From positions 13,250,517-13,314,516 of the forward strand of contig OX442318.1 in assembly GCA_949358305.1 (NCBI GenBank): a DNA stretch of 64,000 nucleotides, written 5' to 3'. Made by a program: the position numbers and the translations under genes. This stretch comes from Strigamia acuminata (lineage: Eukaryota > Arthropoda > Chilopoda > Geophilomorpha > Linotaeniidae). The notes under the pieces were generated by a model that worked only from the letters and a program-made list of their open reading frames with translations, made no database searches and was not told where the DNA came from. How positions within the stretch are numbered: position 1 is the first letter of the stretch; every line of letters begins with the position of its first letter. Of the stretch, positions 2,068 to 61,443 are shown in pieces.

Positions 2068-2712
2068 TTATACTCCCACAGTAAACATTCCAAATTCTTT
2101 CAAACTCTTCATACGACCAAGGGCTTGGTCAAAAAAGTCTGCCAAGACTAGGCACATGCCTTCTTCAACTTGTTCTTTCCTATTCAGATGTTTGGATCGA
2201 GTCCGCTGGGCTCTATCTCGAAGAAGTTTCACCACATTCAGGCTGGCGCAAAACATCTCCGCTCCGTCTTCGGGATCGTCTTCTTGATTTAGCTCCATCG
2301 ATAATTGTTTCGTCCAAATTAATTCTCTTATCCCTTCCGTTAGTGCCAACAATTCGCTTTCGATGCTTGACATCGCCACTATTGTCTGTTTTTAGCATCT
2401 CCAATTAATTAGAGAATTTTCATCACAGACTAAAAATCCAGAAAAAGATCTAGCATTTTGCGTGCGGTCCCAACTAACGTCAGAGTACCCATGGATTTCA
2501 CGCTCATCATTGCAGTAGGTCAACTTGTAATGCATTGTACCTTTCAGGTATATCACTATTCGTTTTAATGTATTTTGGTGTATTTGGCACGGAACAAGCA
2601 TCTTAGGTCGTCTTCCACTCTTCAAAATCATCAAAAACGTGTGAGGGTAATTTGGCATTTCAACTACAGTACTCAAGAATTGTAAAAAACAATTCTCTAC
2701 TTTTTTCGCCAC
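2068..2712 (-). mobile_element. Decayed Copia reverse transcriptase/RNase H fragment
   Basis: Minus-strand reading in shifting frames gives the end of a Ty1/Copia polyprotein. A 'YLKGT..Y.LTY' segment (end of the RT region) is followed by 'GYSDVSWD' and 'FSGFLV' (compare the usual YSDADWAG..STSGY), then 'SSIESELLALTEG' (RNase H, compare SSTEAEY.AL). After a break come the 'RTRSKHL' and 'VLADFFDQAL' tail motifs. Frames change at least twice, so it is inactive. It ends about 70 bases before exon 2 of DEG/ENaC copy A, where that gene's intron 1 or exon 1 would be expected, so the insertion may have separated or destroyed the first exon. Confidence 0.75.
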
Positions 2713-3571
2713 TGCATATTAAAATATATCGCAGATTAATTGATTTATTTGGAAATTGAATACTTATTCTCTTGTGGCAATAGGTCCATGTTCCATTAAA
2801 TATAACCATGACTGAAGAACTACAGCCGTGGGGTACTTGCACTAAATTTAAAGGTGAGTTAAATGAAAATCAATTCCTTCAGAAGGTAAAAAGTATTCCA
2901 ATTACAGTTGATGGAACTGTGAAGGGTTTTGAAATTTTTACAAGAATAGGATACGACATAAGGGCAAATGAATTGAAACGAGGAACATCCTTCACACTGG
3001 TAAAGAAAACTTGGTGCAAAAATATTAACAAGTAGTAAGAGTCCTGATTAATTGTACATTTTAGATATCATCGTCACAACCAATGGATTTTCAGACTGGT
3101 TTCGTGCAGTCTGCAGCCACTTTTGCCAAACTAGGATTAAGTTTCAGACTGGTAAGATTGCATTGTGCATCTGACAACAATGTTCACACTGGTAGTAAAA
3201 TCAAAATTTTTATGAGAAAAAAAAATCAGGCAATGGTAAAAATCTTAAAAAGATATGGTGGTACAAACAATAAATAGCAAATGAAAACAATCTTGATATT
3301 ACAAGAAAAATTGTGATTTTTTATCAGCTCAACTATGAAAGATGGAAGCGATCTTGGACGTGACAACCAGTGTGTACAATTTATCCGGTATCCAAATTTA
3401 CTACTTTTCATATCATGCTGTTCTTGTGGTTTGGGTTGAGGTCCTGTGGCAATAGCCCTTCTTTTAACCTGGCCCTGTTTAATAACATACTATTACGTGG
3501 TTCGGGGATGAACGAATCCACTTAACAAATTAACTAGAATGACTGTTTTAAATATAAATGAATGTTCTTTA

Positions 3572-4398
3572 GGGGCCGTCTATAAATTAGGTAACGCTGA
3601 TTTTTAGATTTTTAGACCCCCTCCCCCCCCTTGTAACAAGGTCGTAACAAATCCACAAACCCCCCCCTAGAATATTACGTAACAAACCTCACCACCCCCC
3701 CCCCCCCCCAAAAAAAAAAATTTGATACGTGCTTATAATACAAAAATTTACAAAAATTTAAAAAAGATTTAAAAAATTTTTAAAAATTTTCAAAAATTTA
3801 AAAAAGATTTAAAAAATTTTCAAAAATTTTCAAAAATTTAAAAAAGATTAAAAAAATTTACAAAAAATTTACAAAAATTTAAAAAAGATTTAAAAAATTT
3901 TCAAAAATTTTCAAAAATTTAAAAAAGATTTAAAAAATTTACAAAAAATTTACAAAAATTTAAAAAAGATTTAAAAAATTTTCAAAAATTTTCAAATATT
4001 TAAAAAAATTTTCAAAAATTTAAAAATATTTTCAAAAATTTAAAAAAATTTTCAAAAATTTAAAAAAATTTTCAAAAATTTAAAAAAATTTTCAGAAATT
4101 TAAAAAAATTTTCAAAAATTTAAAAAAATTTTAAAAATTTTAAAAAAATTTTCAAAATTTTAAAAAAATTTTCAAAATTTTAAAAAAATTTTCAAAAATT
4201 TAAAAAAATTTTCAGAAATTTAAAAAAATTTTCAAAAATTTAAAAAAAATTTTAAAAATTTTAAAAAAATTTTCAAAAATGTTAAAAAAAAATTTGTTAC
4301 GTTTTTAGAAGTCCTCCCTCCCCGTCGTAACAACCCATAACAAAATTTGAAACCCCCTTCTTCCCCCTCCAGGCGTTACGTAATTTATGGACGGCCCC
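3572..4398. mobile_element. Harbinger-like MITE with TTA target duplication
   Basis: Termini GGGGCCGTC and GACGGCCCC are inverted, followed inward by AAATTAGGTAACGC and its near complement. TTA flanks both sides (3569-3571, 4399-4401). The interior is a C-rich block, an A/T array and a second C-rich block. The same family recurs at 9874. The 3-bp TWA duplication fits PIF/Harbinger, which is inference. It sits in intron 3 of copy A. Confidence 0.8.
3722..4290. repeat. A/T tandem array inside the MITE, unit about 20 bp
   Basis: Degenerate copies of AAAAATTTAAAAAAATTTTC with a 20-bp spacing make up most of the MITE interior. Confidence 0.8.
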
Positions 4399-7300
4399 TT
4401 ATTGATTTATAGTATCGGACATCTGGGCAATACAATCCACATGTCTGGTTTAAGACTAAACTGTACAAGGTATAAAATAATAATCTATTTCATTAATTTT
4501 AGTAATAAAATGATAAGAATTACAAAGCATACAAAATATTACAAATAACTAAGTTAAGTATGGATATTGTTACACGGTGGAACAATACCGTAAACCGGTT
4601 GTCCCTTCCGCGCTTCCGTAAGCATTGATTTGAGTTAATTCCACCTTTCATCACCAGAGTTCGCCCTTGTTAGCGAAGTGGACAGATTAGTCTATTATCA
4701 AACATAGATTCGCCCAAGTTTTCTTAATGACTAAAGAGAGCTGATTTCTCAGTTCTCTCCAGGTTTCCGTGCTTTGAGGCATCTCGAAGTCGGATTTATT
4801 ACTTATTACACCAAGTGTTATTCATACTTAGATTTAGATTTCATTATTATTTAGTGCATTATTATTTGAATTGAGTTCTTACTTATTCTTTGGTGTAATA
4901 AAGATGTTATTATTATTTTAAGTAAACACATAGAGTCCCCTTTATTCATAAGTTAGTAAATGCAAAAGATAGTTAATTACGTGGTCCATTCTCACCCCTG
5001 GGCCACGTAACAATATCAACTGTTTCAAAAGACAAAACTAGGTTCAGTCAAAACACACTGGCTGGCATCATCACAGTTTGAGTGCTTTAGGAGAACTGAC
5101 TTTTATGAGCTGTATCAGCTGGTTTCCCCCATTGAGTCTTAATAGCTCCGTCGATTACCTCACTGTGGTGAATGCCATCTGGTGAGCTTTAACGGTACTA
5201 ATGATCTAAAAACGCACGTTTAAGAAAGCTGGTTTATGGTGTAGCTTATCCGCGTAAGAATACAATAATTTTGTTGAATTTTGTTTCAGCATCGATTTTT
5301 AAACACAAAAAATGACCCTTGTCTACACCATGAGGAGTACATGAAGTGTGGCAAAAAATGTGTGGAAACAATTTTAGACAAAAACCACTGCTGGTTCGTG
5401 CAAATCAACGTTTAACTGGCAATACACACGTATTTAATAAACTTTATTTTGAATTAATAGGTTGCCTTATAGACCAAGATATTCCAAAGGATATCTCCTT
5501 CCGCTTTGCAATAATTCTCTAGAGACGTTAGATATGTACAAAAAAAATAAAAACGATATGATAGGACCAAACCCTTGAGTAGACTGTGGATGTCCTAAGA
5601 ATTGTGAAACCAAAGAAGTTGATATTACTTTTAGATTAGAACATAACAGCGATGGCACATCTTTAGGTTCTTGGCACTTACTCAACGATCATGTGGTCGT
5701 AACGAAAGAGCGTTTTGTCTATGAATTGGACAATCTCATCTGTGATTTTGGTGGAAATCTTGGTCTTTGGTTAGGACTATCTTCGCTCTCCTTACTCAAC
5801 TTGATCTTGCTTGTCGGAAAGCAGTGTGCTAGAAAGCTGATTCGTCACAAAGATCTTGCAACAACACAAATTGAATCTTACCTTAGAGCCAACCAACCAA
5901 CTGTGAAACTCCAAAAACGAAAAAAAATGCTTTCTGTCATTTATCTTAGCTTACTTGGATTCAGTGTATTTATACTGCAACAAAGAGTTCAATTGTATTT
6001 GGATAAACCCATCCAAAGAACAGTGGCTATAGAAGATCCAGCTAATGTAACGTATCCAAATATTATCATTTGTGGAGGACAACATGCGGGAAGAATAATA
6101 AATGCTAAAGAAAAGTATTTAAAGCAACAAAAACTTGACAACTCGAAATGCAATGTAGATTTATTGGATCTACTTGACTTTGATCACAATCAGTTGTCTG
6201 CAGAAATACTGTGGAATCTGACTTACATGAAACCATTCCGTCGGAGTATAATCGAATCATACGTAAGTAAATTTTGGCTGTGGTTACCATGGCAGGTTAA
6301 TTTTTGGCACAATTCAAATTGCAAGGTGAACCCTGCAGTCATGACCATTCAGTTGGTACTGAATTATTTATAACTGAATGGTCGTGATTGAAATGGTTGG
6401 AAGTAATCATTTGACCAATCAATTTGTGAAAAAAACACGCATATTTGGTAAATTAAAGTACACATACCGCTTTTAATCCATTGCTCCTTATTCTTTATCA
6501 ACTATTGAATTGTTTCCGTTTTTAACCTACTTTACATAAACGTGTCAATTACACGAAATAAACTTCTTACAATAAAACTTAGTGTTAATAAAAATAGCGT
6601 TCATTTTTCCTTAAACGCACATCACATTTACTGTTTGCTGCCCCAGCCCCCTTTTCACCACTACAGATATGCCCAGTAAATATGTTATTGTAAGCAGATT
6701 ATAAGTGTCAAATATGACAGAAAGAATTTGGAGTCCAAACATAAATTTACACATAATTTCCATACAAATAAAAATATTTTTTGCGTATTTCATACTTGAG
6801 GATTGTTGAAATCATTATTCTATGTCATTTTCTGCTATTTATGAGCACATAAACTGTTGCAACATTTCAAACTGAACTTATATCTTTTTAGAATCCGTTT
6901 CCGTTTAATCTATTAGATGTGCGAACGTTTTCTAACTTCCCAAATCCACTTGGAACTTGCGTTAAACATTCCTTTGGTAATAAATTCCTTTTCTAATAAA
7001 CAGAGTAAAACAGATTGGATTTGAATTAGGTTCAATTAAATATCAATTATATTCCATGTTTCTTGACTTTATCCCAGAAATAGACAATATATGCAGACCA
7101 GATTATATACAAGTAAATATTGGTAAGGGTACTAATGGTGTAAATATCTAATCACAGAAATTTCAGGTGTATATAACTCCGATTGAAGATCCCAATTTTT
7201 CATTTGATTTCAATGTTGCTTGTTTACCAACACTGTCTACAACTGTTCTGCTTAGAAGACTAAATGTATGCATTACATTTCTCCAATGGTACATATAAAA

Positions 7301-7879
7301 TTCATTACACTTAAACCGTTTCAGAACCATCGTCTAAACACTAAACGTAATCCATGCAATGCAAACTTAACTCAATATTACACCTGTAGACGCCAGTGCA
7401 TAGACAATGAGATCAAAAGCAAACAATTGTGCAGGTAATACTAAAAGATGTCGGGCAAGGTAAAACCTTATTTTCTCTATTTATTTTCTAGTATGCCGTT
7501 TGCTATTAAAAGAGACGTTGCCTTCTGCAACTCTTCAGCATCAGCCAAAGCAGTGCGAGCTTTGTACTACAAAACACACACAAAAATTGATGTTGAAAAA
7601 CAATGCTTGTGCTCACCACCTTGCAAACAACCATTCTACAAACTAAACGACTTTAATTATGCTTCTTTTAGAGCAGACACATCCATCATAACAATTCCTT
7701 TTATTACCAACAAAATAGAAACAATAGCTGAAGAATTTAAATATTCTTTTGTTGCATTAGTTTCCGATGTGGGCAATATTTTTAGTTTGACCATCGGCCT
7801 TTCTGTGTTAGCTGCAATACATTTCTTATTCTATCCTGCACTTTTACTAGCAAAAAAAATAAATAATTACCAAAACTAA

Positions 7880-10485: not shown

Positions 10486-10727
10486 TAATGGGACATCAAC
10501 TCTCAATAAATTCCGATCGATCCTAGGTAGGACATTCAAAGTTTAAACCATTCACTGTTAAAATTCAAACATTCTAATACGTACCTTATACAGATTCTCA
10601 GGCGATACAGAGAAGTGAATGTAAAGAGTATATCAGCCGAAATCAAAATACAAGTAGCAATAAAAGCAATAATTTCCTTCTCACAATCACCATTGTGTCT
10701 TTAAATCTCTTTTCTTCATTATAGAAA

Positions 10728-13700
10728 ATGGTGTTTCAACAAAAAATCGGCAGAAAACTTAAACTGAAAGTCAAAGACGTACTGAATTCACTGGAGGAAG
10801 AGAAAGAAATACTGCAATTGTTTCATCCAATAAATGATGAAACGAATTCTCTTGCATTTCATATTTTTTGGTCTTTTCTCGTTGTAGTCTGTATTCTCAT
10901 CTATAGTTTCCAAATCTATGACCGTATTTCTTATTACATTGAAAGCCCAAAAGCAGTTGATGTCTATGAAGAAAAGATGGACGAATTTCAGTTTCCGGTT
11001 GCGCACGTCTGTGTGCTATCAAATAAGTATATAGTAGCTTACTATAACTCATCTGGCTTAGTACCGTCGGAAATAGATTCTGCTGCCCCAATTGACAATC
11101 TTATACAACGTTCTGATGTTGATCTTACTAAATTGTGGAACTTAAACTACAGTTTCAAAGCCATTCATAATTTATTCATGATTGATGAGCAACGCCAACA
11201 CAAAGTAGGTTGAAAAGTTTTTAATCAGGAATAGTAAATCAAAGTTTAAAATTAAATTAGTCTAAGAAACAACACTGTCTTTACGAAATGTAAATGAACT
11301 TCACGATGGGTGATGAATTGTAAAACAGCAAAAGCGACGGTCGAAATAAAACTTAACAACTTTTAATTTTACTTGAGTTGAAAAATGACATTCTTTTTCA
11401 CAAGTGACGCGTGGTCAGCGAGTTGAGGGTGGAATGTGGGTTACATAGAAAAAACGGGGTCTACATCCGGTCAACAAGGGCCGAAAGATACCCAATTTAC
11501 ATAAAAGAGGGCTCTCGAAAAGACCCTCGAGCGATTTATATAACACAAAAAGAACACAGACAATTTAATGCAATAACACAACTGAAAAGTCAGCAAAAAC
11601 CATGATGAAACACAATTAAACACGATAATACACAATAAGGCACAATGAATGAAAAAGAACACAAAACACAAAACAAAACACAAAACACTTAATTGTAATA
11701 AACACAAATCAATCACTAAATTCAATCGATAATTAAACTAAGACAAAATTACTAAAATCAAATACATGAATAAACATTAAAAACAAATTAAATCAGTCTA
11801 GATTTTACATTGGGGGGGGGGGAATTCAATTAGTCTGAAGCCTCTAAAGAACACAGTCTTTGTACTGGGCGTCTCAAAGTTTTTCCTTCGGGCAAAGTCA
11901 ATTCACAAGAGCGTATTTTTTCGTCCCGTCCGATAAAGGTATTTGAAACTCTTGCCATTTTCCATGACATTCGAGGCTGACCTTGTTCTTGAATGAGAAC
12001 CAAATCCCCAATTTGAACTTCTTTTGAGGTTCGTACACGACGGAATTCACGAAGCTCGACAAGGTACTCGTGCGTCCAACGACGCCAAAGCAAATTAATC
12101 AAACGTTGACGCAGCTTCCATCGCTTCACGAGCTCGGGTCGAAATGAATTGTCGACACGACTTTCTGGACTGTAGACGTCTGGAAGCGTGATGAGACGTC
12201 CTCCGGTCAAAAAATGAGAAGGCGTCAGCGGTTCTTGCTCCAACGGATCGTCCGTAACGTAAGTGATTGGTCTCGAATTAACCGCAGCTTCGACCTCTGT
12301 CAAAACGGTCGACAGTTCTTCAAAGTCCAACGATGATCGAGCAAGGACTTTTTTTAAGCTCAGTTTAACAGTTTTGACCAGTCGCTCCCAAAATCCGCCC
12401 CACCACGGAGCCAATTCGACGATAAATTTCCACTGTATTTTTTGCTTTGACAAGAACCCCTGGAACAGCTCGTGCGAGAAGCTGTTGATGAATAAAGACA
12501 AGTCTTTTTCGGCTCGCTTAAAGGTTTTAGCATTGTCTGAGTAGACAATGCCAGGGACTCCTCTTCTTGCAATAAGTCGTTTAAATGCGAGAATGAATTT
12601 CTCCGTAGTGAGATCAGATACAAGTTCTAAATGAACAGCTCGCACCACGGCACAAGTGAACAGAGCGATGTAAGTCTTTTTTCCGTTTTTAGTGTATAGT
12701 GGTCCGGCGAAGTCTATGCCAATAATTTGAAATGGCTCCGCACGATTCACTCTGTCCGCAGGTAGCAGACCGACCGTTTGAGTCATCAATTTTGCGTTCA
12801 CTCTTCGACAAGTCACGCATCGGGAAATCAATGTCTTGATGAATTTTCTTCCTTTTTTAACCCAGTATTTCGCTCTAAATTCTGACAGAGTGTTGCCTAG
12901 TCCTCCATGTAAAGTTCTATGATGACAATCTTCGACTATTAATTTTACAGCCGGTGAATTTGAATCCAAAACGATGGGGCTCACAAAATTTTCTATTCCC
13001 GTGTTAAAACGTATTCTCGAGTCGATTCGTATAATTTCATTCTGGTCGAGAACTACGGCTACGCTTGCTAGGGGTGAATCGCTTTTCAGTTTCGTTGAAT
13101 TTTTCAAGCTATATATTTCCTCCGAAAATCTCTGTTTTTGTATACTGCGCAACCAATAAATTTCGGCTGTTTCTAACTCTTCCGTCTTTAACGGTCCGAT
13201 GACTGTTTCGATTTTTCTTGAATTGTGGCAAAATCTCAAAATCCAGGCGGTGATTCGTTTGACTTTGGTCCAACTGCTGTACTTTTCAATATCGAAAATC
13301 GCCTCTTCACTTGATCGAGTCACATTTACGCGAGTATCTATTTCTTCAATTTCTTCTTCAAAGTTGGACTCTGTTTCTTCGTCGAATTTTTGTGGCCAAT
13401 GTGTCTCGTCCTTTTTCAGCCACTCAGGGCCGCTCCACCATTCGATGTCTTGAACCAATTTGTCGGCCTCCATTCCTCGGGTTAACTTATCCGCTGGATT
13501 GACCTTCCCCGGGCAATGACGCCAACAGGCGACCTCGGTGTTCGTGCGGATTTCGCGGACTCGGTTCGAGACGAATGGATTTGACTTCTTCTGTTGCTCG
13601 CGAATCCAGAAATATGTAATGGACGAATCGGTCCAGTAGAAAACACGCTGAATTTCTAACTTCTTGAGTTTCACGGCAACTCGCGACAGCAGCAATGCGC

Positions 13701-16700
13701 CCATCAATTCGAGTTTGGGCAGCGTTAAAGACTTCAGTGGTGCAACGCGCGACTTCGACATACAGAGTGTGACTTCTACGGATGTTTCATTTTTTGTTCG
13801 AATGTAGACCACGACTCCATATGCTTTGGGGCTTGCGTCGCAAAACAAATGCAATTCACGATCTGGATTTGATTGTTGTCCAGCGCTGTAATGTCGAGGA
13901 ACGGCAATTTTTCTTAGCAATACGACTTGTTGTCGCCAACTTGACCATTGTTTTGAAATGTCGGGGGGTAATGGCGAATCCCAACCTATATTTCGAGTCC
14001 ATAATTCCTGGAACATCAGTTTGCCGACAATTACGAATGGTGTCGCAAATCCTAATGGATCGTAAATCCTTGCCACGGACTGAACGATCAAACGTTTTGA
14101 TTCCTTGAGTTGATCTTGTGCGTCAGCCCATTCGCCTATTTCGAGCAGGAGGTGGTCGGTTATAAAGTTCCAGATCAGTCCCAACACGGACGTCGAGTGT
14201 TTGTCGGCGTCGACCAGATTTGCGTCCGACGGAATTTCTCTCGCAAAAAGTTCTCGCAAGCTTTGTGAGTTCGATTGCCATTTGCGTAGGGGCATGTGCG
14301 CTTCCATCATCAATTTGCGAGCTTCGTGGAATATTTTTTCCACCTCCCCTTCGGATTTGGCGCAACCGAGCAAGTCGTCGACGTAAAATTTATCTTTGAT
14401 TTGAGCAACTGTTTCTTCATATTTTTCACGCATGTTGTCGAGATGTAGTTGAATTGAGTCGTTTAAAAGGTAGGGACTTGATTTGACTCCGAATACTACT
14501 CTTTTCTGGCGCATAACTCTGGGCTTCACAAACTGCCGACCGTCCCATTCTTCCGGTGTCCAAAGGAAACGAACGAAATCCCGATCTGCCATTCTCAGCA
14601 ATAGCTGTAAAAACGCCTTTTCTATGTCCGAAAGATAAGCAAATGGTTCTTTTCGAAACAAAATCAGCAATATAAGTATTTCTGGCAGCAAATTAGGACC
14701 GCTGTCCAGGCAATCGTTCAGTGAAAGTTCATTTTTTCCTTTAGCTGAGGCATCGAAAACGATCCGAATCTTTGTCGTGACGCGATCTTCTTTAATAACG
14801 GCTCGGTGTGGCATGTAGTACGAATTTTCATGTTGCGGTTCATTAACTTCTTCGATTATTCCATCACGTATTTGATCGTCGAAAATTTGTTTGTAGGCGG
14901 CGTAGAATCCTGGATTTTTCTTAAATTTTCTTACCAGATTCCAAAAACGTTTCTCAGCAATTTCGTAATTATTGTGAAGTTTTCTCGGTTCGACCAACCA
15001 CGGCAATGCGACGACGTATCTTCCTTCTTCTCTCGTCACTTGTTCGCGAAAACGAATTGCGCAGGAATTTCGATCGGTCAATGTTTCGTCTTCACTCTCG
15101 TGGCGAATGCCGATGGATTCGAGCTCCCAGAATTTTTTCAGACTCTCGTCCAGTCGCTCCTCGAGACGCACACTGCACACGCGGGTGACTAGTGTGGACA
15201 TTGTCGTGACATTTATTGATGACCCCATCAAAGTCCAGCCAAATAGCGTCTCTATGGCGATCAAATTTTCCTCGATTTTTCGTATGCATCCCGTAAGTAT
15301 CTTCGCGATACAGTCTGCGCCTAAAAGAATAAAAATATCGCAATTAGTATTGTTTCCAGAATCAATCACGATTTGATCGCGTTCGAGGGCGGCTCGTAAG
15401 CCAGCCTGCAATTTGGTACAAATGGGTTTTGTAATCCATGGCGTTTCAAGCGCATTAACGCAGAGCGATCGATTTTTGTCGCCAACATTGCACAATTTGA
15501 GTTCAAATCGATTTCCTTTAGTGTTCAATGGTGTCTGATTTCCAAAAGTGTGCACGCTTAAATGTTCCTCTCCATTCGGCTTTAAATGCATGTCTTTTGC
15601 CAAACTAGCCAGTACGAAGGAACTTTGGCTTCCGGGATCGATCAAACATTGCACGGTGGACTCACGAGATTCGTTTTGAATTTTTACGAATATTGTTGCC
15701 AATGTTGTGGTCGGAGGTTGAGCGTACGCAGCGAGATTTTCGTTGGTTGATACGAGCAGAGTGACTTTTTCTTTTGGTGTCTCAGATGGTCCTTCGCACA
15801 CGAGTTGGTTGTGATGGCGTTGACACAGTTTACATGTCACACGGTAGGTGCAGTTTCGAGACGAATGTCCCTTTTTTAAGCATTTGAAGCAGCGACCTTC
15901 CTTTTTGACGAATTCTTTACGCTCGGTTGCCGTCGTTAAACACCCGTCACGCTCATGAGTCTTGTTGCAAAACATGCAATTGCTGATTGTTGTGCTCAAA
16001 ACACGAGCAGACGGCACGCGGTTGTGAGTTTTGTGAACAGGCTTGTCCACATCAACTTTTTCAGGTTTGCTTTTTTCTGTTGAGCGGTGAAGATCTTGAA
16101 AGTTCTCAATTTTATTGTGGTGCACGAGTTCGTTACGCACCATGTCCAACAAATCTTTAGCTTTGTATTTCCCGTCGGGATATTGACGTGAAAATTCCAG
16201 CGAAATTTGTCGTGGCACTAGTCCTAGAATGAGTGGACACGCTGTTGCGTCAATGGCATCAACATTCATATTTGCCGCATTCAGACCGCGTACGTGTGTT
16301 TCACACTCATCGTACAATTTTTGAAGAGGAATAGGATCGAGAATATCACGTACGGGTTTCATTTTCATTAGGGAGCGTAAATGTGCGCTGAGAAGAACAT
16401 CTGTACGGCCAAAGCGTTCGAGCAACAATTTTTTAGCGATCGGATAGTTTTCATTCGTTGGCGGTAATCCCTTCAACACGAGTGCTGCTTCTCCATCCAA
16501 GAGCGACTTTAAATACACCAATTTACTTTGCGCAGAAATGTTCGTTTTGGTGTCAATTGAGATCTCAAAATTACCCCAAAAGTCAGCCCAGTCCAGCGGA
16601 TCTCCTTTGAATTTAATTGTGTCGTACTTGGGCAGTCGCATGGGTGAGTCTTGTGGCACACTCGCGGTCCCGTGGTAATTATTTGTTATCGGCGGGAGTA

Positions 16701-19700
16701 CAGGTGTGGTTGGGGGCGCGATGAAAGTAATTAGCGCCTCGTCGATTTCGACACCACAATCAATAATTTTTTCGTGATATTCAGTCTCGGATCGAGTGAT
16801 TTCTTCATCTATCTCTTGTTCGTCGGTGAGCATGGCCAAGATTTTGGCGTCGAGCGATTTGAGTTCATTTGATTTTGCTTGTAGATGCACTTTTATCTTT
16901 TTTAAATCGAGTTCATTTATAGGTATACCAGCGAGAATTGTTTTGGCCTTCGTTATAGTTGTGGTGGTCAGCCTACGGGTTACTGCACGCTGAGCCTTCA
17001 ACACGGCGAGGTCGTCGGCCATTGTTAAATTCGAGATGCTACTTGCAGTTTTTTCAGATTGAAGTTACGAGTTTGTTCCCTGGAAAGATGTCCCGGGTTT
17101 CGGCACCAATTTACGAAATGTAAATGAACTTCACGATGGGTGATGAATTGTAAAACAGCAAAAGCGACGGTCGAAATAAAACTTAACAACTTTTAATTTT
17201 ACTTGAGTTGAAAAATGACATTCTTTTTCACAAGTGACGCGTGGTCAGCGAGTTGAGGGTGGAATGTGGGTTACATAGAAAAAACGGGGTCTACATCCGG
17301 TCAACAAGGGCCGAAAGATACCCAATTTACATAAAAGAGGGCTCTCGAAAAGACCCTCGAGCGATTTATATAACACAAAAAGAACACAGACAATTTAATG
17401 CAATAACACAACTGAAAAGTCAGCAAAAACCATGATGAAACACAATTAAACACGATAATACCGTACTGCCTCGATTTAACGCCGGGGCGTTTATTCATTT
17501 TTTCTAGTTGACCCCCCCGGCGTTCATTCAAAGCCCGGCGATTATTCGCGCCGGGCGTCTACCCGAAAAAAAAAATTGGAAAGCCACTCATTGCTAGCTA
17601 TTCTTCGATGTTTCGACCAAAAGACCTCTCAAAACGTTTAAAAAACGTTTCAACCCGGCGTTTAAACAAACCCGGCGTTCATTTAAGGCCGGCGTTTATT
17701 GCCATTTCGTCCTCAGTTTGCCCGGCGCTTAATCAGGAGCCGGCGTTTAGATACGACCGGCGTTAAATCGAGGCAGTACGGTACACAATAAGGCACAATG
17801 AATGAAAAAGAACACAAAACACAAAACAAAACACAAAACACTTAATTGTAATAAACACAAATCAATCACTAAATTCAATCGATAATTAAACTAAGACAAA
17901 ATTACTAAAATCAAATACATGAATAAACATTAAAAACAAATTAAATCAGTCTAGATTTTACACTGTCACTTTGAGTTTGAGTACATTCAAATTCCATGTT
18001 GGTTGCCTTTCCTCTCAGTCTGGCTTAGCTTTCTCTCTTGCTTCTTCTTCTCACATTTTCTCTGATTTCAGTCTTGCTTTAAACTCCCTTCTCGAGTTTC
18101 AGTCTAACTTCCTTTCTGGTTTCCGGGTGATGTCATTTACTCTGTGACCACTTGGCCACCCAAGGGTTAAAAGCGTCACTACCACACACCGCCCAATGGC
18201 CCTAAGGTCATCCCTCCTTGCGGAATGGAATGACCCAGTATAGGGGAGGAGGGAACTGAGTGGCGTGGGGAGTAGAGAGAAGAGCACTGGGTCTCAACCG
18301 AGACAGGTGTGTGAAGTAAGGTCTTGAAGCCAGCAAGAATCGTCGTACTCTGGCTGACTCTGCTCTCTTCATTCACCACTGCGTCGCTCACAATTCAGTA
18401 GTGTGATGGTGGCTGTAGTGGTACAGCCTCCACGAGCGGTTGCTTGGGCTGTACGGGTAAGTATAGCAGAATTGTTATGTTTGACCGGCCACGTCATCCA
18501 TGGGTTCCCACCCTGTGTATGACGGGTCGGTCGCTGGTGTAGCGTGCCTTCATTACACTGTAAACACGCGAGTATATGAGAAGCTCCGACCCCTAGACAA
18601 CGGATTAAAGGCCAACAACCAACAATCTGGCGTCCCTGTCTAATTATTACGTGAGTATGCGTCCCACACCATGGTAACCAGTCCCCAGGCTGCCATGGCA
18701 AAGACCATACCAGTCACAACTCTAGGTAGAGAACCCGTCAAAGATCCTAGACCTGGAGCCCGCTTTTGGATGTAGGGGCTATGCGTAACCTGGTACCCAT
18801 TCCTCCATTCCTCCGTTGCTACGATATTACACATCAGTTACAATTCTATTGTGTTTATAGGTAAATGTTCCAGTAAATGTAACCATGATTGAAGAACTTC
18901 AGCCGTGGGGTGCTTGTACTATATTTAAAAGTCAGTTAAAAGAAAATTGAATTCTTCAGAAGGTAAAAAGTATTCCAATTACAGTTGGTGGACCTCTGAG
19001 AGGTTCTGAACGTTTTACAAGAATAGGATTTGACCTAAGGGCCTATGAATTGATACCAGGAATAGCCTGGACACTGGTAAATTAACTTTTTACCAGGTGT
19101 AACAAATATTAACTCATTGTCCATTCCAGATATCAATGTCAGTACCATTGGATTTTCAATTGGCTTTCTTGCAACAAGCAGCAACGTATGCCCAACTGGG
19201 ACTACGATTTAGAGTGGTAAGGTTGCATATTTCATCTTAACAATGTTCATACTGGCCGAAAAGTCAAAGTTTCTTTGTAAGAATAAGCCTAAAACAAAAA
19301 TCAAGAAACTCTGACAGGGGTAAAAAGATACGGTTGTGAGGACAATTAATGACAACCAAAAATTACGATTTTCAAAAGCTTTAATTAAAATCACCAGCGT
19401 AAAATAAATAAAATCACTTTTTGAAGTCAAAATTGACCCTAGGTTGGAATAAAAAGGTTAATTGAATTAAGATTCGTTCTAGCATAAATTCTTAACCACA
19501 AAAAATGAGCCCTGTGTGCAAGATAAGGAGTACGTGGAATGTGGTACAAAATGTGTGGAAACGATTTTAGATAAAAACCACTGCTGGTTCGTACAAATCA
19601 ATAGGTGCATTCAATCTTAACTGGATTTCCGAAATCGTAATTTTCACGATTTTCAGAAATCAAGGAAATCAGATTTCAACTTTGAACGACCTTCAAATTT

Positions 19701-22700
19701 GCCAAAATCCAACTGCTGCACAAGCAGAATTAGAACCGTTGGATAACTTCCTGTTTATAACTTCAAATGGCCAGCCGCATTCGAGAGCTCAAATGCGGCC
19801 GAAATATCGCAAAATATCTGAAAATTACAAGACGGAACATTTAATCACAACAGACCACATTTGGGCACTTGAATGCAGCCAAAATGTTGCGATTTCCTCT
19901 TGCAAAAGCACGCAAGCACAAATGCAGCCAAAAAGCACAGCGGGACATTTAAAAATGTTGTTTGCTAAATGTTAAATGGTTATCAGTCAACCAAAAACAC
20001 TGTGCTTTGATCACACTGTGTGGATATAATGGCTGAAAATCTAGAAAATCAAAACAAGCGACCCTCCATGTGGATTTTCAAAAATCCAATTTTGAAATCC
20101 GATTTCAATTTAATGACGTAAACATCGTCACTTCCGGTCTCCCAAAATCAAGAAAATCAAAGAAATCCATATAAGATTGAACGCACTTAATGTTTAACTG
20201 CAATACTCACATATTTAATCACCTAACTTTAAATACACAGGTTACCTTATAGACCGAGATATTCCAAAGGACGTCTCCTTCCGCTTTGCAATAACTCTAA
20301 AGAAACGTCAGATATGTACAAGAAAAATAGAAACGATTTGGTAGGACCAAACCCTCGAGTTGACTGCGGATGTACTAGGAGCTGTGAAACCAAAGAAGTT
20401 GATGTTTTATTTCGATTAGAACATAACAATGATGGCACATCAGAGGTTTCTTGGCACTTGCTCGATGATCATGTGGTCGTAACGAAAGAGCGTTTGGTCT
20501 ATGAATTGGACAATCTCATCTGTGATTTTGGTGGAAATCTCGGTCTTTGGTTAGGACTATCTTCGCTCTCCATACTCAACTTATTTCTGGTAGTTGGAAA
20601 ACGCTATTCTGCAAAGCTCATTAGCCACAAAGATCTCGCAACAAGACAAATTGAAGCTTACGTTAGAGCCAACCAACTAATTCCGTACCGACAAAAACCA
20701 AAAAAGCTATTTTCCGTCATTTATCTTTGCTTGTTGGGATTCAGTGGATTTATACTTCAACAAAAAATTCAATTGTATTTGAATCAGCCCGTTCAAAGAA
20801 CCGTGGCCGTTGAAGATCCAGCTAATGTGACGTACCCAAATATTATCATTTGTGCGGGACAACATAATCCAAGACTTGTAATCAATAAAGGGAAATATTT
20901 GAAACAACAAAAACATCCTGACACAACATGCAATGTGGATATGTTGGATCTAATCGACTTTAATCGCAACAAGTTTTCAGCAGAAAACCTGTGGGAAATG
21001 GCATATACGAAATCTTGCCCTTCGACTCTCCTTCGAACATTCGTAAGTAAACTTTTTGCAGAAATCACCCTGCACAAACTGTTCGAAGAGTTTGTTTCTC
21101 GAAAACCGACCATGGGATATAGATGAAACTTGTTTTATTGGGTTTTTCACGTGGTTTTGTAACTACAAGTATATAGAAACTTTCAGACACCTAACACTTT
21201 CGGTTTGCTACTTACGGTAATGTCAACGTTGATGTCAAAAGTGCAAAATAGGGAAATGAGGGAAAAGGGGAAATGGCAGAGGCTTTTTGATACAGGGGAT
21301 GACCATTCAGTTGGTTATATCTAACTTGCATAACACCAATCATTTTATTGTTTGCTGCCCCAGTCCATGAGTAGATATGCAAGCAGATTATAAGTGTCCA
21401 AATGTAGAATAAAGTGTCTTAATTTAACTTGTGGGAGCCTGATGCCATGAAGAATTTGGGGGCCCCAAACATAGATTTGCACATACTGTAGCTGTATAAA
21501 ATATTTTTTTGCACATTTTATTCATACTGTAAGGGCTGCTGATACTTGTATAATCATTTTTTTTCTGCAATTTGGGAGCATGTAAACAACGGCTACATTT
21601 TAAATTGAATTTATATTTTTTAGAATCCGTTTCCAGCTGAACTTTTTAAAGTTCGAACATTTTCTGAGTTCCCAAATCCACTTGGAACTTGCGTCAAACA
21701 TTCCTTTGGTAATTAATTCCTTTTCTAATAAGCAGAAATTAAAACTAGTAAATTTGACTTAGGTTCAATAAAATATCAATTATATACCATGTTCCTTGAG
21801 GGTATTCCAGAAATCAGTCGTATGTGCAGACCGGATTACACACAAGTAAATATTGGTAAAAGCACTGAGAGTGTTAGAACCTAACCACATCAATTTCAGG
21901 TTTACATCACTCCAATCGAAGATCCCAATTTTTCATTTGATTTCAATATTGCTTGTCCATCTACATTGACTACAACTATCCTGCTTAGAAAACTAAATGT
22001 ACGTACCACATTTCTCCTATGGTTTGTGAAAAGCCTTTGTTTGCAATGTATCACACTTGAAACCATTTCAGAACAATCGTCTCAACACTAAACGTAATCC
22101 ATGCAATGCAAATTTAACTCAATATTACACCTGCAAACGCCAGTGCATAGACAATGAGATAAAAAGCAAACAATTCTGCAGGTAATAGTAAAAGATGTCG
22201 AGCATGGTGATGTTAGTGAAAGACTCAGAGCACATCTTACTCTATGGGTGGCTTTATTCGGACTGGGGGTTAAAACTGTACATGGGGTGGACATGGTTAC
22301 ATGACACTACATAAGTAGATTAAATAACCATTGGCGCCTCTCATGTGGTACCACACTACAGAATACCATATTGCCATACTGTAATGTATACACAACATTC
22401 CAACAAGTGAAAGCTTATTTTCTCTATTTATTTTCTAGTATGCCCTTTGCTATTAAGAAAAACGTTACCTTCTGCAACTCTTCAGCCTCAGCCAAAGACG
22501 TGCGAGCTTTGTACTATGACATACACGCAAAAATTGATGTCGAAAAGCAATGCTTCTGCTTACCACCTTGTAACCGAACATTCTACAAGATAGACAACTT
22601 TAATTATCGTTCTGTTAGAGTCGACACATCAACCATAACAATTACTTTAAGTACAAATAAAATAGAAATAATCACTGAAGAATTTAAATATTCTTTTGTT

Positions 22701-22829
22701 GCATTAGTTTCCGACGTGGGCAATATTTTTAGTCTAACCCTTGGCCTTTCAGTCTTAGCTGCAATTCATTTCTTAATCCATCCGGCACTGGTTCTGGTAA
22801 AGAAGATATTGAATAGCCAAAACGAGTAG
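10728..22829 (+). CDS. Tandem two-domain DEG/ENaC cation channel, copy B (intact)
   Basis: Exons 10728-11204, 18861-18930, 18985-19076, 19130-19216, 19483-19586, 20241-21042, 21624-21708, 21763-21845, 21900-21998, 22072-22181, 22439-22829 join in phase to 799 residues. Half 1: TM1 about 46-65, 'FQFP' at 87-90, cysteine-rich extracellular region, TM2 about 369-395 with DFGG (372-375) and pore motif GLS (382-384). A linker of about 37 residues follows. Half 2: TM1 about 433-452, 'YPNIIIC' at 475-481, a second cysteine-rich region with 'CLPPC', and TM2 with DVGN and GLS (772-774). DEG/ENaC proteins are normally single two-TM subunits forming trimeric Na+ channels; here two are fused. The start follows a 3' splice site (ag|aaaATG), as in copy C, implying a 5' UTR exon. 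Intron 1 carries a BEL/Pao element and a solo LTR; intron 4 carries a TIR element. The classical His-Gly gating motif appears as His-Pro (33-34). Ligand unknown. Confidence 0.9.
11280..11809 (-). repeat. 3' LTR of the BEL/Pao element
   Basis: 530 bp; in element orientation it runs TGTAAAATC..CATTTCGTAAA. It retains the uninterrupted site (CACGATAATACACAATAAGG) where the right LTR carries a MITE. The element side is bordered by a run of G in window orientation (11811-11821). Confidence 0.92.
11830..17022 (-). CDS. BEL/Pao gag-pol polyprotein
   Basis: One uninterrupted 1730-residue frame. In order: N-terminal coiled region; DUF1759-like gag ('KFKGDPLDWADFWGNFE'); zinc knuckles (CFKCLKKGHSSRNC followed by CKLCQRHH); DUF1758-type aspartic protease with 'LIDPGSQSSFV', where Pro replaces the usual Ser/Thr of D-S/T-G; reverse transcriptase ('IVFDASAKG', 'LSDIEKAFLQ', catalytic 'YVDDLLG'); RNase H ('LFCDASPKAYG'); H2C2 zinc-binding segment ('HHRTLHGG..CVTCRR'); integrase core ('GIDFAGPL', 'IVYSDNAKTF'); and a C-terminal DUF5641-like tail. 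All are hallmarks of BEL/Pao elements that replicate through an RNA intermediate in virus-like particles. With no stops or frameshifts the element may still be active; the protease Pro is the one odd residue. Confidence 0.95.
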   Translation of the reverse strand: MADDLAVLKAQRAVTRRLTTTTITKAKTILAGIPINELDLKKIKVHLQAKSNELKSLDAKILAMLTDEQEIDEEITRSETEYHEKIIDCGVEIDEALITFIAPPTTPVLPPITNNYHGTASVPQDSPMRLPKYDTIKFKGDPLDWADFWGNFEISIDTKTNISAQSKLVYLKSLLDGEAALVLKGLPPTNENYPIAKKLLLERFGRTDVLLSAHLRSLMKMKPVRDILDPIPLQKLYDECETHVRGLNAANMNVDAIDATACPLILGLVPRQISLEFSRQYPDGKYKAKDLLDMVRNELVHHNKIENFQDLHRSTEKSKPEKVDVDKPVHKTHNRVPSARVLSTTISNCMFCNKTHERDGCLTTATERKEFVKKEGRCFKCLKKGHSSRNCTYRVTCKLCQRHHNQLVCEGPSETPKEKVTLLVSTNENLAAYAQPPTTTLATIFVKIQNESRESTVQCLIDPGSQSSFVLASLAKDMHLKPNGEEHLSVHTFGNQTPLNTKGNRFELKLCNVGDKNRSLCVNALETPWITKPICTKLQAGLRAALERDQIVIDSGNNTNCDIFILLGADCIAKILTGCIRKIEENLIAIETLFGWTLMGSSINVTTMSTLVTRVCSVRLEERLDESLKKFWELESIGIRHESEDETLTDRNSCAIRFREQVTREEGRYVVALPWLVEPRKLHNNYEIAEKRFWNLVRKFKKNPGFYAAYKQIFDDQIRDGIIEEVNEPQHENSYYMPHRAVIKEDRVTTKIRIVFDASAKGKNELSLNDCLDSGPNLLPEILILLILFRKEPFAYLSDIEKAFLQLLLRMADRDFVRFLWTPEEWDGRQFVKPRVMRQKRVVFGVKSSPYLLNDSIQLHLDNMREKYEETVAQIKDKFYVDDLLGCAKSEGEVEKIFHEARKLMMEAHMPLRKWQSNSQSLRELFAREIPSDANLVDADKHSTSVLGLIWNFITDHLLLEIGEWADAQDQLKESKRLIVQSVARIYDPLGFATPFVIVGKLMFQELWTRNIGWDSPLPPDISKQWSSWRQQVVLLRKIAVPRHYSAGQQSNPDRELHLFCDASPKAYGVVVYIRTKNETSVEVTLCMSKSRVAPLKSLTLPKLELMGALLLSRVAVKLKKLEIQRVFYWTDSSITYFWIREQQKKSNPFVSNRVREIRTNTEVACWRHCPGKVNPADKLTRGMEADKLVQDIEWWSGPEWLKKDETHWPQKFDEETESNFEEEIEEIDTRVNVTRSSEEAIFDIEKYSSWTKVKRITAWILRFCHNSRKIETVIGPLKTEELETAEIYWLRSIQKQRFSEEIYSLKNSTKLKSDSPLASVAVVLDQNEIIRIDSRIRFNTGIENFVSPIVLDSNSPAVKLIVEDCHHRTLHGGLGNTLSEFRAKYWVKKGRKFIKTLISRCVTCRRVNAKLMTQTVGLLPADRVNRAEPFQIIGIDFAGPLYTKNGKKTYIALFTCAVVRAVHLELVSDLTTEKFILAFKRLIARRGVPGIVYSDNAKTFKRAEKDLSLFINSFSHELFQGFLSKQKIQWKFIVELAPWWGGFWERLVKTVKLSLKKVLARSSLDFEELSTVLTEVEAAVNSRPITYVTDDPLEQEPLTPSHFLTGGRLITLPDVYSPESRVDNSFRPELVKRWKLRQRLINLLWRRWTHEYLVELREFRRVRTSKEVQIGDLVLIQEQGQPRMSWKMARVSNTFIGRDEKIRSCELTLPEGKTLRRPVQRLCSLEASD
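17092..17109 (-). other. Primer-binding site of the BEL/Pao element
   Basis: On the minus strand TTGGTGCCGAAACCCGGG directly follows the 5' LTR. The same 18-mer follows the second BEL/Pao LTR at 63403. It is expected to pair with a tRNA 3' end; the tRNA species is not identified here. Confidence 0.9.
17110..17962 (-). repeat. 5' LTR of the BEL/Pao element, interrupted by a MITE
   Basis: 530 bp of LTR plus 323 bp (a 321-bp MITE and a duplicated TA). Sequence on both sides matches the left LTR without visible difference. Confidence 0.92.
17461..17781. mobile_element. MITE with CCGTACTGCC ends and TA duplication
   Basis: Inverted ends CCGTACTGCCTCGATTTAAC / GTTAAATCGAGGCAGTACGG, TA on both flanks, and the empty site present in the other LTR of the same retrotransposon. 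The interior has many GCCGGCGTTTA-like repeats in both orientations. A 159-bp relative lies at 61444. Confidence 0.92.
18143..18665 (+). mobile_element. Copia-family solo LTR
   Basis: It starts TGTGACCACTTGGCCACCC and shares ordered blocks with the inverted copy beside the Copia fragment at 1530-2054. No coding sequence is attached, so it looks like a solo LTR in intron 1 of copy B. The right boundary is approximate. Confidence 0.6.
19603..20188. mobile_element. TIR element in intron 4 of copy B
   Basis: Ends AGGTGCATTCAATCTTA and TAAGATTGAACGCACTT are near-perfect inverted repeats. AAT flanks both sides (19600-19602, 20189-20191). Copy A has the uninterrupted intron at the matching place (CAAATCAACGTTTAACTG), which confirms the insertion. 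The interior contains repeated AAATCA/TGATTT-type words and no convincing protein. Confidence 0.8.
22195..22408. other. Insertion of about 200 bp in intron 9 of copy B
   Basis: The intron is 257 nt in copy B but 57 nt in copy A. Flanking intron ends still align (AAAGATGTCG.GCA.GG and CTTATTTTCTCTATTTA). No clear inverted ends were found. Origin unknown. Confidence 0.65.
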
Positions 22830-38100: not shown

Positions 38101-41100
38101 AATAGAAACCTAGATAAAACAATTTTATATGTTGCATTAATTTTTATTTATGAAAATTTTTGAAATTGTTACTGTAAACTTGAAATTACGAAGCAAATGT
38201 TTTAGATGTGATTGTGCTGCCACCTATTAGTGAAGTGTACCGATACACTACTTTAGCATGCGTAGGAATATGATTTAGTCACGTGATTTTTTAGTCATGT
38301 GATTTTTCAGTCATATGATTTCACAGATCATTTTTTTTTCTTTTGATTCAATACGACCATTGCAATCATAAAAAATGTCAAAAAGAAAAAGTACAAAAGC
38401 AAGAATCTGGCAAAGTGCTCGGCGAAAGAAGAGGACCTGTAACCACTTAAAAAAGTTTTATGGCTTACCAAAAACTAAAAAGTAATTTATTTATTTGAAA
38501 TTTTATATTATTTTAATTCTGGGTCATATTTTTGGATGTCGGGTCACTTTGGTGCCGATTATTTCGATGCCTAACCAAAAAAAACCCTAAATTTTCACCC
38601 AAATTTATTGATGGATTACTTCGGCGCCATCATTTCATCGTCAATCTCTTCGTCGCCAATCATTGCTTTGGCAATCACTTCGTCACCGCTCATTTCTTTG
38701 GCAATCACTTCGTCACCGCTCATTTCTTTGGCAATCACTACATTGACTGTCGGCCGTACGTTTTTGACTGTCGACCGTCAGCTTTCGACTGTCGGCCGTA
38801 CGTTTTCGATGTCGGCCGTACGTTTTCGATGTCAGCCATACGTTTTCAACTGTTGGCCGACGACTGTCGGCCGTCAGCTGTCGCGGCATTTGTATATATA
38901 TATTTTTTTTTATAAATTGTAATAAAAATCACGAAACAAAACATAAATTGCACAAATTGCAACACACACTCGGTGTATGGCAGCGATGGTCACGACAGCT
39001 GACTGCCGATTGGCGGGGAATTTGTTTGAGATTGGCGGGCCATACGTTTTCGACTGTTGGACGTCGACTGTCGACAGCTGTTTTTATGCACTTTTTGGCT
39101 AGTTTTCATGCGAGTTTTGGCCAGTTTTCATGCGACACGTTTTTCCGGCAAATTTTATAGGTGTTTGCAGGGGAATTTGAGGGGAATTTGTTTGAGATTG
39201 GCGGGGAATTTGTTGGAGATTGGCGGCAAATTTGACACGTTTTTGAGGGGAATTTGTTGGAGATTGGCGGCAAATTTGACACGTTTTTGAGGGAAATTTG
39301 TTTGAGATTGGCGGGGAATTTGTTTGAGATTGGCGGCAAATTTGACACGTTTTTGCGCAAATTTGACACGTTTTTGAGGGGAATTTGTTTGAGATTGGCG
39401 GCAAATTTGACACGTTTTTGAGGGAAATTTGTTTGAGATTGGCGGGGAATTTGTTTGAGATTGGCGGCAAATTTGACACGAATTTGCGGCCGTACGTTTT
39501 CGATGTTGGCCATACGTTTTCGACTGTTGGACGTCGACTGTCGGCAGTCAGCTGTCGCGGCCATCAGCTGTCTACTGTCGGCCGGTTTTCTACTAATTTC
39601 CGTAAAAAAAAATTGCAAATGCATTTGTATATTTATATTTATAAATTTTAATAAAAATCACCAAACAAAACACAAATTGCACAAATTGCAACACACACGC
39701 GTTGTATGGCAGCGATGGTCACAACAGCTGTTTTCATGCGCTTTTTGGCCAATATTTATGCGATGTTTGACCACCAATTCTGGTGCGATTTTTGGGAATA
39801 TTTTATACGATTTTTAGGCAAGACAGAAATAAAGATATAAAAATTTTGTCAAAGATTTTATTTGTTTTTGTACCAAATGTCATACGATTTTGGGCAAGAT
39901 TTCTTCCAATTTTTGGCCATTTTTTATGCGTTTCGGGTCTGTTTTCAGGCGCTTTTTGGCCAGTTTCAAAGCGATTTTTGGCCAATATTTATGAGATGTT
40001 TGGCAACAAATATGCTGTGAATATGCGGCAATAAGCCGTGAATTATTATTGGCAAGTAATCGTGTGATTTTGGGAATGATTTCAACCGATTTTGTACAAG
40101 ATTTGTTGTGATTTTGTGCAAGATTTGTTGCGATTTTGGGTAGAATTTGTTGCGATTTTTGGCCAGATTATGTGCAATCTTGGGCCAGAGATTATGTGCC
40201 ATCTTGGGCCAGTTTTGGTGCAATTTAGGCCAAGATTTGCTGCGATTTTGGGGAACTTCTTGCCCTTTATTGTTGGCAAGAAGTTGTACGATTATGGCAA
40301 TGAAATTAGCTGTTTTGTGCAAAATTTTGTTCGATTTTGGCCAATAATTTAAACTATTTTTGGTCAATGTTTCTGAGATTTTGGGGACACTTTTATACAA
40401 TTTTGGACCAGTTTTGGTTGAAATTTTGGGCCAGGTTAGGTGCGATTTTGGGTCGAATTTGGTACGATTTTGGGCCAGATTTGGTGCGATTTTATGCATT
40501 TGGACCAGTTTTGGTGGCAATTTTGGGCCAGATTAGGTGCGATTTTATGCAAGACAAATATAAAAATATAAAAACTTTAAAAATAATTGACCCAACATTA
40601 ATTTGTATTTTAAAAAAAAATTAATAGTGAATTCGAGGATCCTGAAAGCATTGAAATTGATGGGCAGTCAGAAATGGATTCAATGCTACTGTCACATTTG
40701 AGTTTTCAAAATGAGAATACTCCAATTGCAAATGAATGTGCTGTTGATCATGGAAGTGATCATTCATTTCAATTGCCAAATTCTACTGATGAATTTGACA
40801 GTGCACATCTTAAAATTGGAGAGTTATGTTCAACACCTAGGCCTGGTCGAAATCAAGGAGGTGACTCTCCTATAGAGATGAATACACCAATCAGTGATGA
40901 AGTTGCTGGTTCATACAGCCAAGAAAGTGAAAGGTATTCATACATCACAAAGTCAATTCTTTTACTGTGTTACAAAATTATTTTTTTTCAGTTACTTGGG
41001 TCGACGTATTGTTGACATAGGACATGTATTTTCTGCTATCAAAACCATATCAGATCACGATCCATTTGACTGCTCATTTAAAGATATGGACCTTGTCAAT

Positions 41101-61001: not shown

Positions 61002-61443
61002 TTTCTGTTAAAAGACAAAACAAAAATGTGTTGTACTGACTGACAAGTGAGGTTTATAGGTGCATTAGAATGTTTGAATTTTAACCGACGTGCCGTGCGT
61101 CAGCCCTAACTAATATTCATGATACATGCAGTCTCTAACATCAGACGGACGTATATAATAGCAATACACTAAATGCAACTAAAAGTGTTGTATATGTTGT
61201 GTTGTGACCAATACTCGGCCACTGCAATGCGTAACCCACATGGCCCAATCCACCAACACCCTGCCAGGTGGAGTTGATGGTTGAGGAGTAGTGATCATAA
61301 TGATATCACTTACACCTTACCTTTAACTGATGCTAAACTAATTATGGATCCACTGAGTCTTCCAGGTGCAATGGGTAGAATCGACTCCAAAGCCTAATAT
61401 CGATGCTAAATCCAGGCTATTTGAATTAAAGCAACTGCATTTA
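61002..61443. promoter_or_regulatory. Region upstream of copy C
   Basis: It should hold the 5' UTR exon and promoter of copy C on the minus strand, since the ATG follows a 3' splice site (TTTTAACAG|AAAATG). The donor and start site are not identified. Confidence 0.35.

Follow-up and report, generated by a model that had tools for sequence, protein, structure and literature searches.

In the window analysed here (the whole 64,000-nucleotide stretch of the Strigamia acuminata assembly GCA_949358305.1, contig OX442318.1, positions 13,250,517 to 13,314,516), three copies (A, B and C) of a DEG/ENaC channel gene were found, and copies B and C are strongly predicted each to encode a single polypeptide that contains two DEG/ENaC repeats. 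The exons were modelled by hand, guided by splice sites, phase and homology between the copies (Table 1). Copy B (forward strand, 10728-22829) and copy C (reverse strand, 61001-55137) each comprised 11 exons in a single open frame, of 799 and 798 residues respectively, and each frame ran through a first transmembrane segment (TM1), a cysteine-rich domain, a second transmembrane segment (TM2), a linker and then TM1, cysteine-rich domain and TM2 again, as an earlier note on this DNA had claimed. The note had also described a single 802-nt exon (exon 6) carrying TM2 of half 1, the linker and TM1 of half 2 in all three copies, with no stop between TM2 and TM1; both points were confirmed, with a basic linker of 36 residues. 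Exon 6 was open in B and C, and its only stop, in copy A, lies 5' of TM2. The four-segment tandem dimer proposed in the note is supported by sequence: the intact copies B and C each keep a single frame, two ASC repeats are present and both are under purifying selection, and more than 200 homologous fused exons occur in the genome. The single-chain tandem architecture together with its large family is, as a joint claim, considered very likely.

The halves of copy B, searched singly, each matched Pfam ASC (half 1, 64.4 bits; half 2, 59.8 bits; cut-off 23.6), and the whole chains scored 112.2 bits (B) and 108.2 bits (C). Hydropathy and PDB alignments gave TM1, a large Cys-rich ectodomain and TM2 in each half (the TM1 part of half 2 aligned weakly), with 10 ectodomain cysteines in half 1 and 14 in half 2 of copy B. 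With four transmembrane segments in one open frame the product is not a conventional one-repeat, two-segment subunit, though each half is a member of the superfamily by sequence. For both halves the best PDB matches were the centipede channels BRTNaC1 and PDPNaC1.

Identity between half 1 and half 2 was about 20% (69/370 in B, 81/369 in C). Each half has five introns, with phases 0, 1, 0, 0, 2 in both and alignment offsets of 6, -2, 0, -4 and 0, a match equalled by none of 1,000,000 random placements, where the comparison itself rests on a weak alignment of the halves. Because intron order, phase and approximate place agree between the halves, exon 6 appears to combine the final exon of one gene with the opening exon of the next. 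Two adjacent genes of the same build would have been joined, the reading frame passing without a break from the end of the first gene to the start of the second; the exon layout is hard to explain otherwise.

Both repeats are under purifying selection. The ratio of nonsynonymous to synonymous substitution (dN/dS) between B and C was 0.42 overall, 0.50 in half 1 (to residue 376) and 0.26 to 0.41 across parts of half 2; for the second TM1 (20 codons) it was 0.82, on few changes. Nonsynonymous changes between B and C were depleted in half 1 (Fisher, p 7e-5), in half 2 (p 2e-10) and in the stretch from TM2 through the linker to TM1 (p 0.012), and in that stretch also between A and B (p 0.010). The TM2 regions of B and C were identical at 29/31 and 30/31 residues, vs 220/300 and 203/291 in the ectodomains. 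That the copies are decaying gene relics read through by chance is extremely unlikely: copy A does carry a stop, as do 12 of the 229 fused exons in the genome, but the ratios for half 1 and the parts of half 2, the ag/gt splice sites, the exon lengths shared by the three copies, and the 217 open frames among the 229 all stand against decay. Exons 2-10 were equal in length across A, B and C, and exon 11 measured 388, 391 and 388 nt, respectively. In exons 2-11 of copy A every acceptor is ag and every donor gt. A candidate exon 1 for copy A (71% match) lies about 1.2 kb ahead of the window start, at C6:13248855-13249325, and loss of this exon is not established.

Two separate proteins could arise from the locus through an internal promoter, an internal start, internal polyadenylation or alternative splicing within exon 6. 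In copy B the stretch between residues 302 and 511 lacks an in-frame Met, which leaves a half 2 that includes its TM1 without a separate ATG start. In-frame Met codons do occur at residue 404 of copy C, in the linker, and at 433 of copy A, as an internal start would need, but their positions do not coincide. Exon 6 holds poly-A hexamers at residue 305 (A and C) and at 489-491 (all three copies), which suit early termination, but none was found in the linker of A, B or C, and no acceptor within the linker is common to the copies. Poly-A hexamers were present 3' of the end of half 2 in A, B and C, which is weak support in AT-rich DNA. A DEG/ENaC paper (PMC3583452) lists among its references a title on operon-like transcription in Drosophila. 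The frame through the linker was kept at 217/229 genomic places. After the checks of start codons, splice sites and poly-A signals the two-protein explanation was set aside and is judged highly improbable.

Several results weigh against the single chain. TM2 contains donor-like sites (residue 380 in A, B and C; 393 in B), and acceptor-like sites occur past the second TM1 (459 in B, 467 in C); their scores are in the same range as those of real sites, so that alternative splicing inside exon 6 is still allowed by score. The splice models of B and C are predictions from genomic DNA, and their weak points are the exon 5 donor, CTG/GTTCGT in all three copies, and the exon 3 start, which was set by phase. 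Between B and C, dN/dS in exons 2-5 was 0.80, indicating weak constraint, and in the linker alone nonsynonymous depletion was not significant (Fisher p 0.12); over TM2, linker and TM1 the A-C comparison was borderline (p 0.053). A structure model of exon 6 (AlphaFold, three rows) had a mean predicted local distance difference test score of 33.8, which is useless, and was not used.

For the wider family, the whole genome was searched (237,517,015 bases in 157 contigs, labelled C1, C3, C6 and so on). The fused-exon query gave 144 scored matches of 1401 candidates, 139 of them spanning TM2 to TM1 and 132 doing so with no stop, and two further family queries gave 147 matches of 1583 candidates and 150 of 1623. 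The union of the three queries (144/144, 147/147 and 106/150 rows, the 44 rows left out being places already in the union) comprised at least 229 fused exons, 217 open and 12 with a stop, counted as exons rather than as completed gene models. This large family, not visible from the window sequence, goes beyond the earlier note. The 217 open exons were distributed over eight contigs, and the 132 from the first search fell into 55 groups, the largest with 37 members on C6. For these 132, the nearest upstream match was of exon-1 type in at least 94, the nearest downstream match of exon-11 type in at least 94, and both in at least 86; the counts are rough lower bounds, taken from 103/150 exon-1 rows and 111/150 exon-11 rows chosen by hand near fused exons. 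All half-2 terminal exons fetched (30/30) reached a stop shortly past TM2, and two of the 34 fetched loci that were aligned contained a stop. A Pfam search added five loci: four on C3 were fused exons with a longer linker, outside the 229, and the fifth (L077) was not fused. In size and clustering the family resembles an arthropod expansion of the chemoreceptor type.

Six fused exons were clustered in and around the window (C6:13226854-13356249), three on the forward strand followed by three on the reverse strand. Equal-score fused exons lay on different contigs (C3:11014317, C6:2863754 and C6:2938079; C1:5396634 and C32:58171), reflecting either recent duplication between chromosomes or unplaced haplotype pieces. 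Three adjacent fused-exon pairs without a flanking-exon match between them were considered as three-unit genes, and none was shown. In the pair on C9, read directly, a half-2 terminal exon and an exon-1-type exon lie between; in the array on C4, which holds two of the candidate pairs, another member has its own terminal exon.

Single-repeat DEG/ENaC genes seem to remain in the genome. The eight best Pfam matches were TM2 exons with a stop shortly after TM2, which proves nothing alone because half-2 terminal exons do likewise. For five of them (L002, L003, L005, L007 and L008) the same strand carries, upstream, a TM1-type open frame that contains no TM2 match, and L004 has the same arrangement via L077; the other two of the eight are L001 and L006.

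In a tree of 70 TM2 exons the half-1 rows formed one group (94/85, just below the tool's mark) and the half-2 rows another (100/98), as expected if one fusion preceded the expansion; for the main group a single fusion is likely. The single-repeat row L004 stood beside half 1 (95/78), and the TM2 exon L006 grouped with BRTNaC1, here (100/88) and in a thinned tree (96/93). Left out of the 70 were L009 (copy B), L038, L046 and L047 (duplicates), L014 (copy A), and L062 and single-repeat row 5 (short), and L020 was kept with X at its stop. Counting against a single fusion, the tree had only 132 columns and gave long-branch warnings, and when the C3 subfamily was included in a hand-thinned tree, support for half 2 was 79/66 and half 1 was not one group (p-AU, from the approximately unbiased test, 0.198 for one clade). 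Because one clade for half 1 was neither shown nor rejected, a second, independent fusion is possible for the C3 subfamily.

At the pore the two halves differ. The position of ASIC1 E451 held N in 23, D in 10 and E in 5 of the half-1 rows (n = 38; acidic 15/38), and H in 23, R in 5, N in 2 and Y in 2 of the half-2 rows (n = 32; acidic 0/32); these counts include near-copies and two stop-bearing rows (L014, L020). The references had E in 10/10 (eight single TM2 exons of the genome and two PDB chains). Half 1 mostly retained the GG and GxS pore motifs. In half 2 the second Gly of the GG pair was Asn in 32/32 rows, and the one half-2 exon read from the C3 subfamily had Ser there and His at the E451 position. 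Because half 2 has no acid at E451, and usually His or Arg, three copies of it would probably make a poor cation pore. The gate Asp (ASIC1 D433) and a G-x-S or G-x-C filter were present in every counted row, rows that had been found by these motifs; in copy B they are D372 and GLS 382-384 (half 1) and D761 and GLS 771-773 (half 2). Neither half of B or C has the inner-pore acids E451 and D454: at these positions half 1 has N390 and L393, and half 2 has H779 and I/F782. The N-terminal His-Gly motif was not present in half 1 of B or C, which has FHPI, and the 12 half-2 rows compared had none over the 40 residues that precede TM1; the single-repeat rows vary, two having His-Gly about 36-38 residues ahead of TM1. 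E451, D454 and the His-Gly motif are described as highly conserved in DEG/ENaC channels, and E451 and D454 as crucial for selectivity according to a review, an effect that a recent study argues is indirect (PMC10148893).

Each chain would supply a fixed pair of non-equivalent pore subunits, with both ends and the linker presumably cytosolic as in other DEG/ENaC channels. The earlier note had reasoned that a four-segment concatemer must assemble differently, which seems reasonable. A pore with threefold symmetry cannot be filled evenly by chains of two repeats, and either a partner subunit or a half left spare is required. Tandem dimers engineered from ASIC1a are reported to work in oocytes with typical ASIC1 currents (PMC4529235), so the covalent link by itself does not have to rule out a trimeric pore of the ordinary kind; by this analogy the result shows that linkage is tolerated, and it does not tell which stoichiometry forms. 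The most likely assembly, favoured tentatively, is a predicted trimer in which the tandem fills two places and a conventional two-segment subunit the third, since half 2 has the look of a specialised partner, and single-repeat subunits with Glu seem to be retained in the genome. The third subunit of this 2+1 trimer is a prediction, and because neither half of B or C has E451 or D454, their pores may not conduct like known channels. Within the window no extra ASC gene was found that could serve as the third subunit, all matches being pieces of A, B and C except one at E 0.95.

Three chains could instead build two linked trimers, one pore from the first halves and another from the second, tied by three linkers. 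The separate sequence groups of the halves, the ASC domain in each half of B, the GxS filter in all counted rows and a linker that would be long enough to bridge at 36 residues are consistent with this, but in a trimer of second halves the E451 ring would consist of three His or Arg for most members (28/32 rows) and the second Gly of GG would be missing in 32/32, and the arrangement is regarded as unlikely. Similarly unlikely is a trimer from two tandem chains alone, with three of the four halves lining the pore and the fourth lying outside or recruiting another chain; engineered ASIC1a dimer, trimer and tetramer constructs all give typical currents (PMC4529235), but TM2 of both halves was the most conserved segment compared, which does not suggest a spare half. 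A tetrameric pore from two tandem chains would fit the one study arguing for an ASIC1a homotetramer at the cell surface (PMC4529235), but ASIC1 and ENaC are trimeric in their structures (PMC10148893), a homotrimer is reported for the centipede channel PDPNaC1 (PMC12714832), and the tetramer is given very little weight.

Family size and clustering suggest a sensory, probably chemosensory, role, a reading weakened by resting on these two features and on analogy. Sodium transport and sensory perception of taste are over-represented among the lineage expansions of S. maritima (PMC4244043). A broader and doubtful proposal is that geophilomorphs replaced much of their single-subunit DEG/ENaC repertoire with more than 220 natural concatemers, each a variable, non-equivalent pair that would share one conventional subunit, forming a chemosensory co-receptor system in which almost all second halves place His or Arg in the pore. 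The family offers candidate sensory receptors in blind centipedes, and supplies natural concatemers with non-equivalent halves and many variants at pore residues thought to set selectivity.

Table 1. Exons and segments of the three tandem DEG/ENaC copies, in window coordinates.
Feature	Position	Strand	Remark
Copy B exon 1: N-terminus and TM1 of half 1	10728..11204	+	Translation 75% identical to copy C exon 1
Copy B exon 2	18861..18930	+	
Copy B exon 3	18985..19076	+	Start picked by phase and homology
Copy B exon 4	19130..19216	+	
Copy B exon 5	19483..19586	+	Donor CTG/GTTCGT, identical in A and C
Copy B exon 6 (fusion exon): Cys-rich end of half 1, TM2, linker, half 2 TM1, start of half 2 ectodomain	20241..21042	+	
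Copy B half 1 TM2, residues 366-396	20506..20598	+	B/C identity 29/31 residues
Copy B linker, residues 397-432	20599..20706	+	36 residues: 10 K/R, 2 D/E
Copy B half 2 TM1, residues 433-456	20707..20778	+	
Copy B exon 7	21624..21708	+	
Copy B exon 8	21763..21845	+	
Copy B exon 9	21900..21998	+	
Copy B exon 10	22072..22181	+	
Copy B exon 11: half 2 TM2 and stop	22439..22829	+	Poly-A hexamer at 22958
Copy C exons 1-5	61001-60525, 60333-60264, 60209-60118, 60062-59976, 58350-58247	-	
Copy C exon 6 (fusion exon)	58176-57375	-	Linker 57711-57818
Copy C exons 7-11	56145-56061, 56009-55927, 55876-55778, 55704-55595, 55524-55137	-	
Copy A exons 2-5	2784-2853, 2908-2999, 3065-3151, 5290-5393	+	Exons 2-11 span 2784..7879
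Copy A exon 6 (fusion exon)	5461..6262	+	One in-frame TGA at 5576-5578
Copy A exons 7-11	6892-6976, 7030-7112, 7167-7265, 7325-7434, 7492-7879	+	

In both B and C a pyrimidine-rich stretch is followed by an AG that lies 3 bases 5' of the start codon, and the two copies have a block of about 25 bases in common upstream (window 10550-10728 and 61001-61090); these features point to a non-coding first exon or to trans-splicing. Intron 1 of copy B holds a BEL/Pao retrotransposon (window 11280-17965) with one 1744-residue open frame on the reverse strand; its insertion appears recent, because the terminal repeats are identical over 352 bases and 99.5% identical over 184. Within one of these repeats an insert of about 320 bp was seen by eye (window 17462-17782), its terminal inverted repeats being about 25 bp long. 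Just 5' of copy A exon 2 lies a Copia-like pol fragment on the reverse strand (window 2068-2718), likewise noted by eye, of which the piece tested had no Pfam match. Elsewhere, an 870-residue open frame (window 40882-43494) carries a Mutator-like transposase domain (PF20700) and a YqaJ exonuclease domain, repeats with frames of the type PQIRPKFAANS were seen by eye at 43716-44536, and open frames with immunoglobulin domains lie on the forward strand at 47304-48839. Rfam and tRNA scans of the window gave no matches.

The earlier note knew of no described natural fusion of this kind, and this agrees with the open-access literature, most subscription papers and animal protein databases being unsearchable. 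No two-domain or tandem DEG/ENaC protein was found in the partial open-access texts, including those on Strigamia or centipedes with ENaC; in the available text of the S. maritima genome paper (PMC4244043) the term 'sodium channel' did not occur, and the paper was absent from the Strigamia and ENaC results. A protein search with the 799-residue chain gave 0/4282 candidates at E<=0.001, in a database that apparently holds few or no animal proteins, and scans of viral and prokaryote contigs with the fusion exon gave no relatives.

Compared with known systems, each half resembles ASIC, ENaC, FaNaC and pickpocket subunits in its Pfam ASC domain, Cys-rich ectodomain, gate Asp (ASIC1 D433) and GxS filter, whereas those chains have two transmembrane segments against four in the tandem, and E451, D454 and His-Gly, highly conserved there (PMC10148893), are missing from both halves of B and C. 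BRTNaC1 and PDPNaC1 (PDB 8ymr and 9jf7) are similar to both halves at the ectodomain end and in the TM2 motifs, but they are single-repeat chains (431 and 421 residues in PDB) and both retain Glu at the E451 position. Engineered ASIC and ENaC concatemers likewise place subunits head-to-tail in one chain; they are artificial, with chosen subunits and added linkers, whereas the tandem described here is genomic and its halves are about 20% identical. K2P and TPC are two-domain channels that arose by ancient gene duplication. As in the tandem, a symmetric channel is there rebuilt from covalently joined, diverged repeats, but in K2P and TPC two repeats divide a fourfold pore, whereas two does not divide three. 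A large natural family of two-repeat chains breaks this match of repeat number to pore symmetry, and makes it possible to test directly how a channel of threefold symmetry accommodates a twofold chain.

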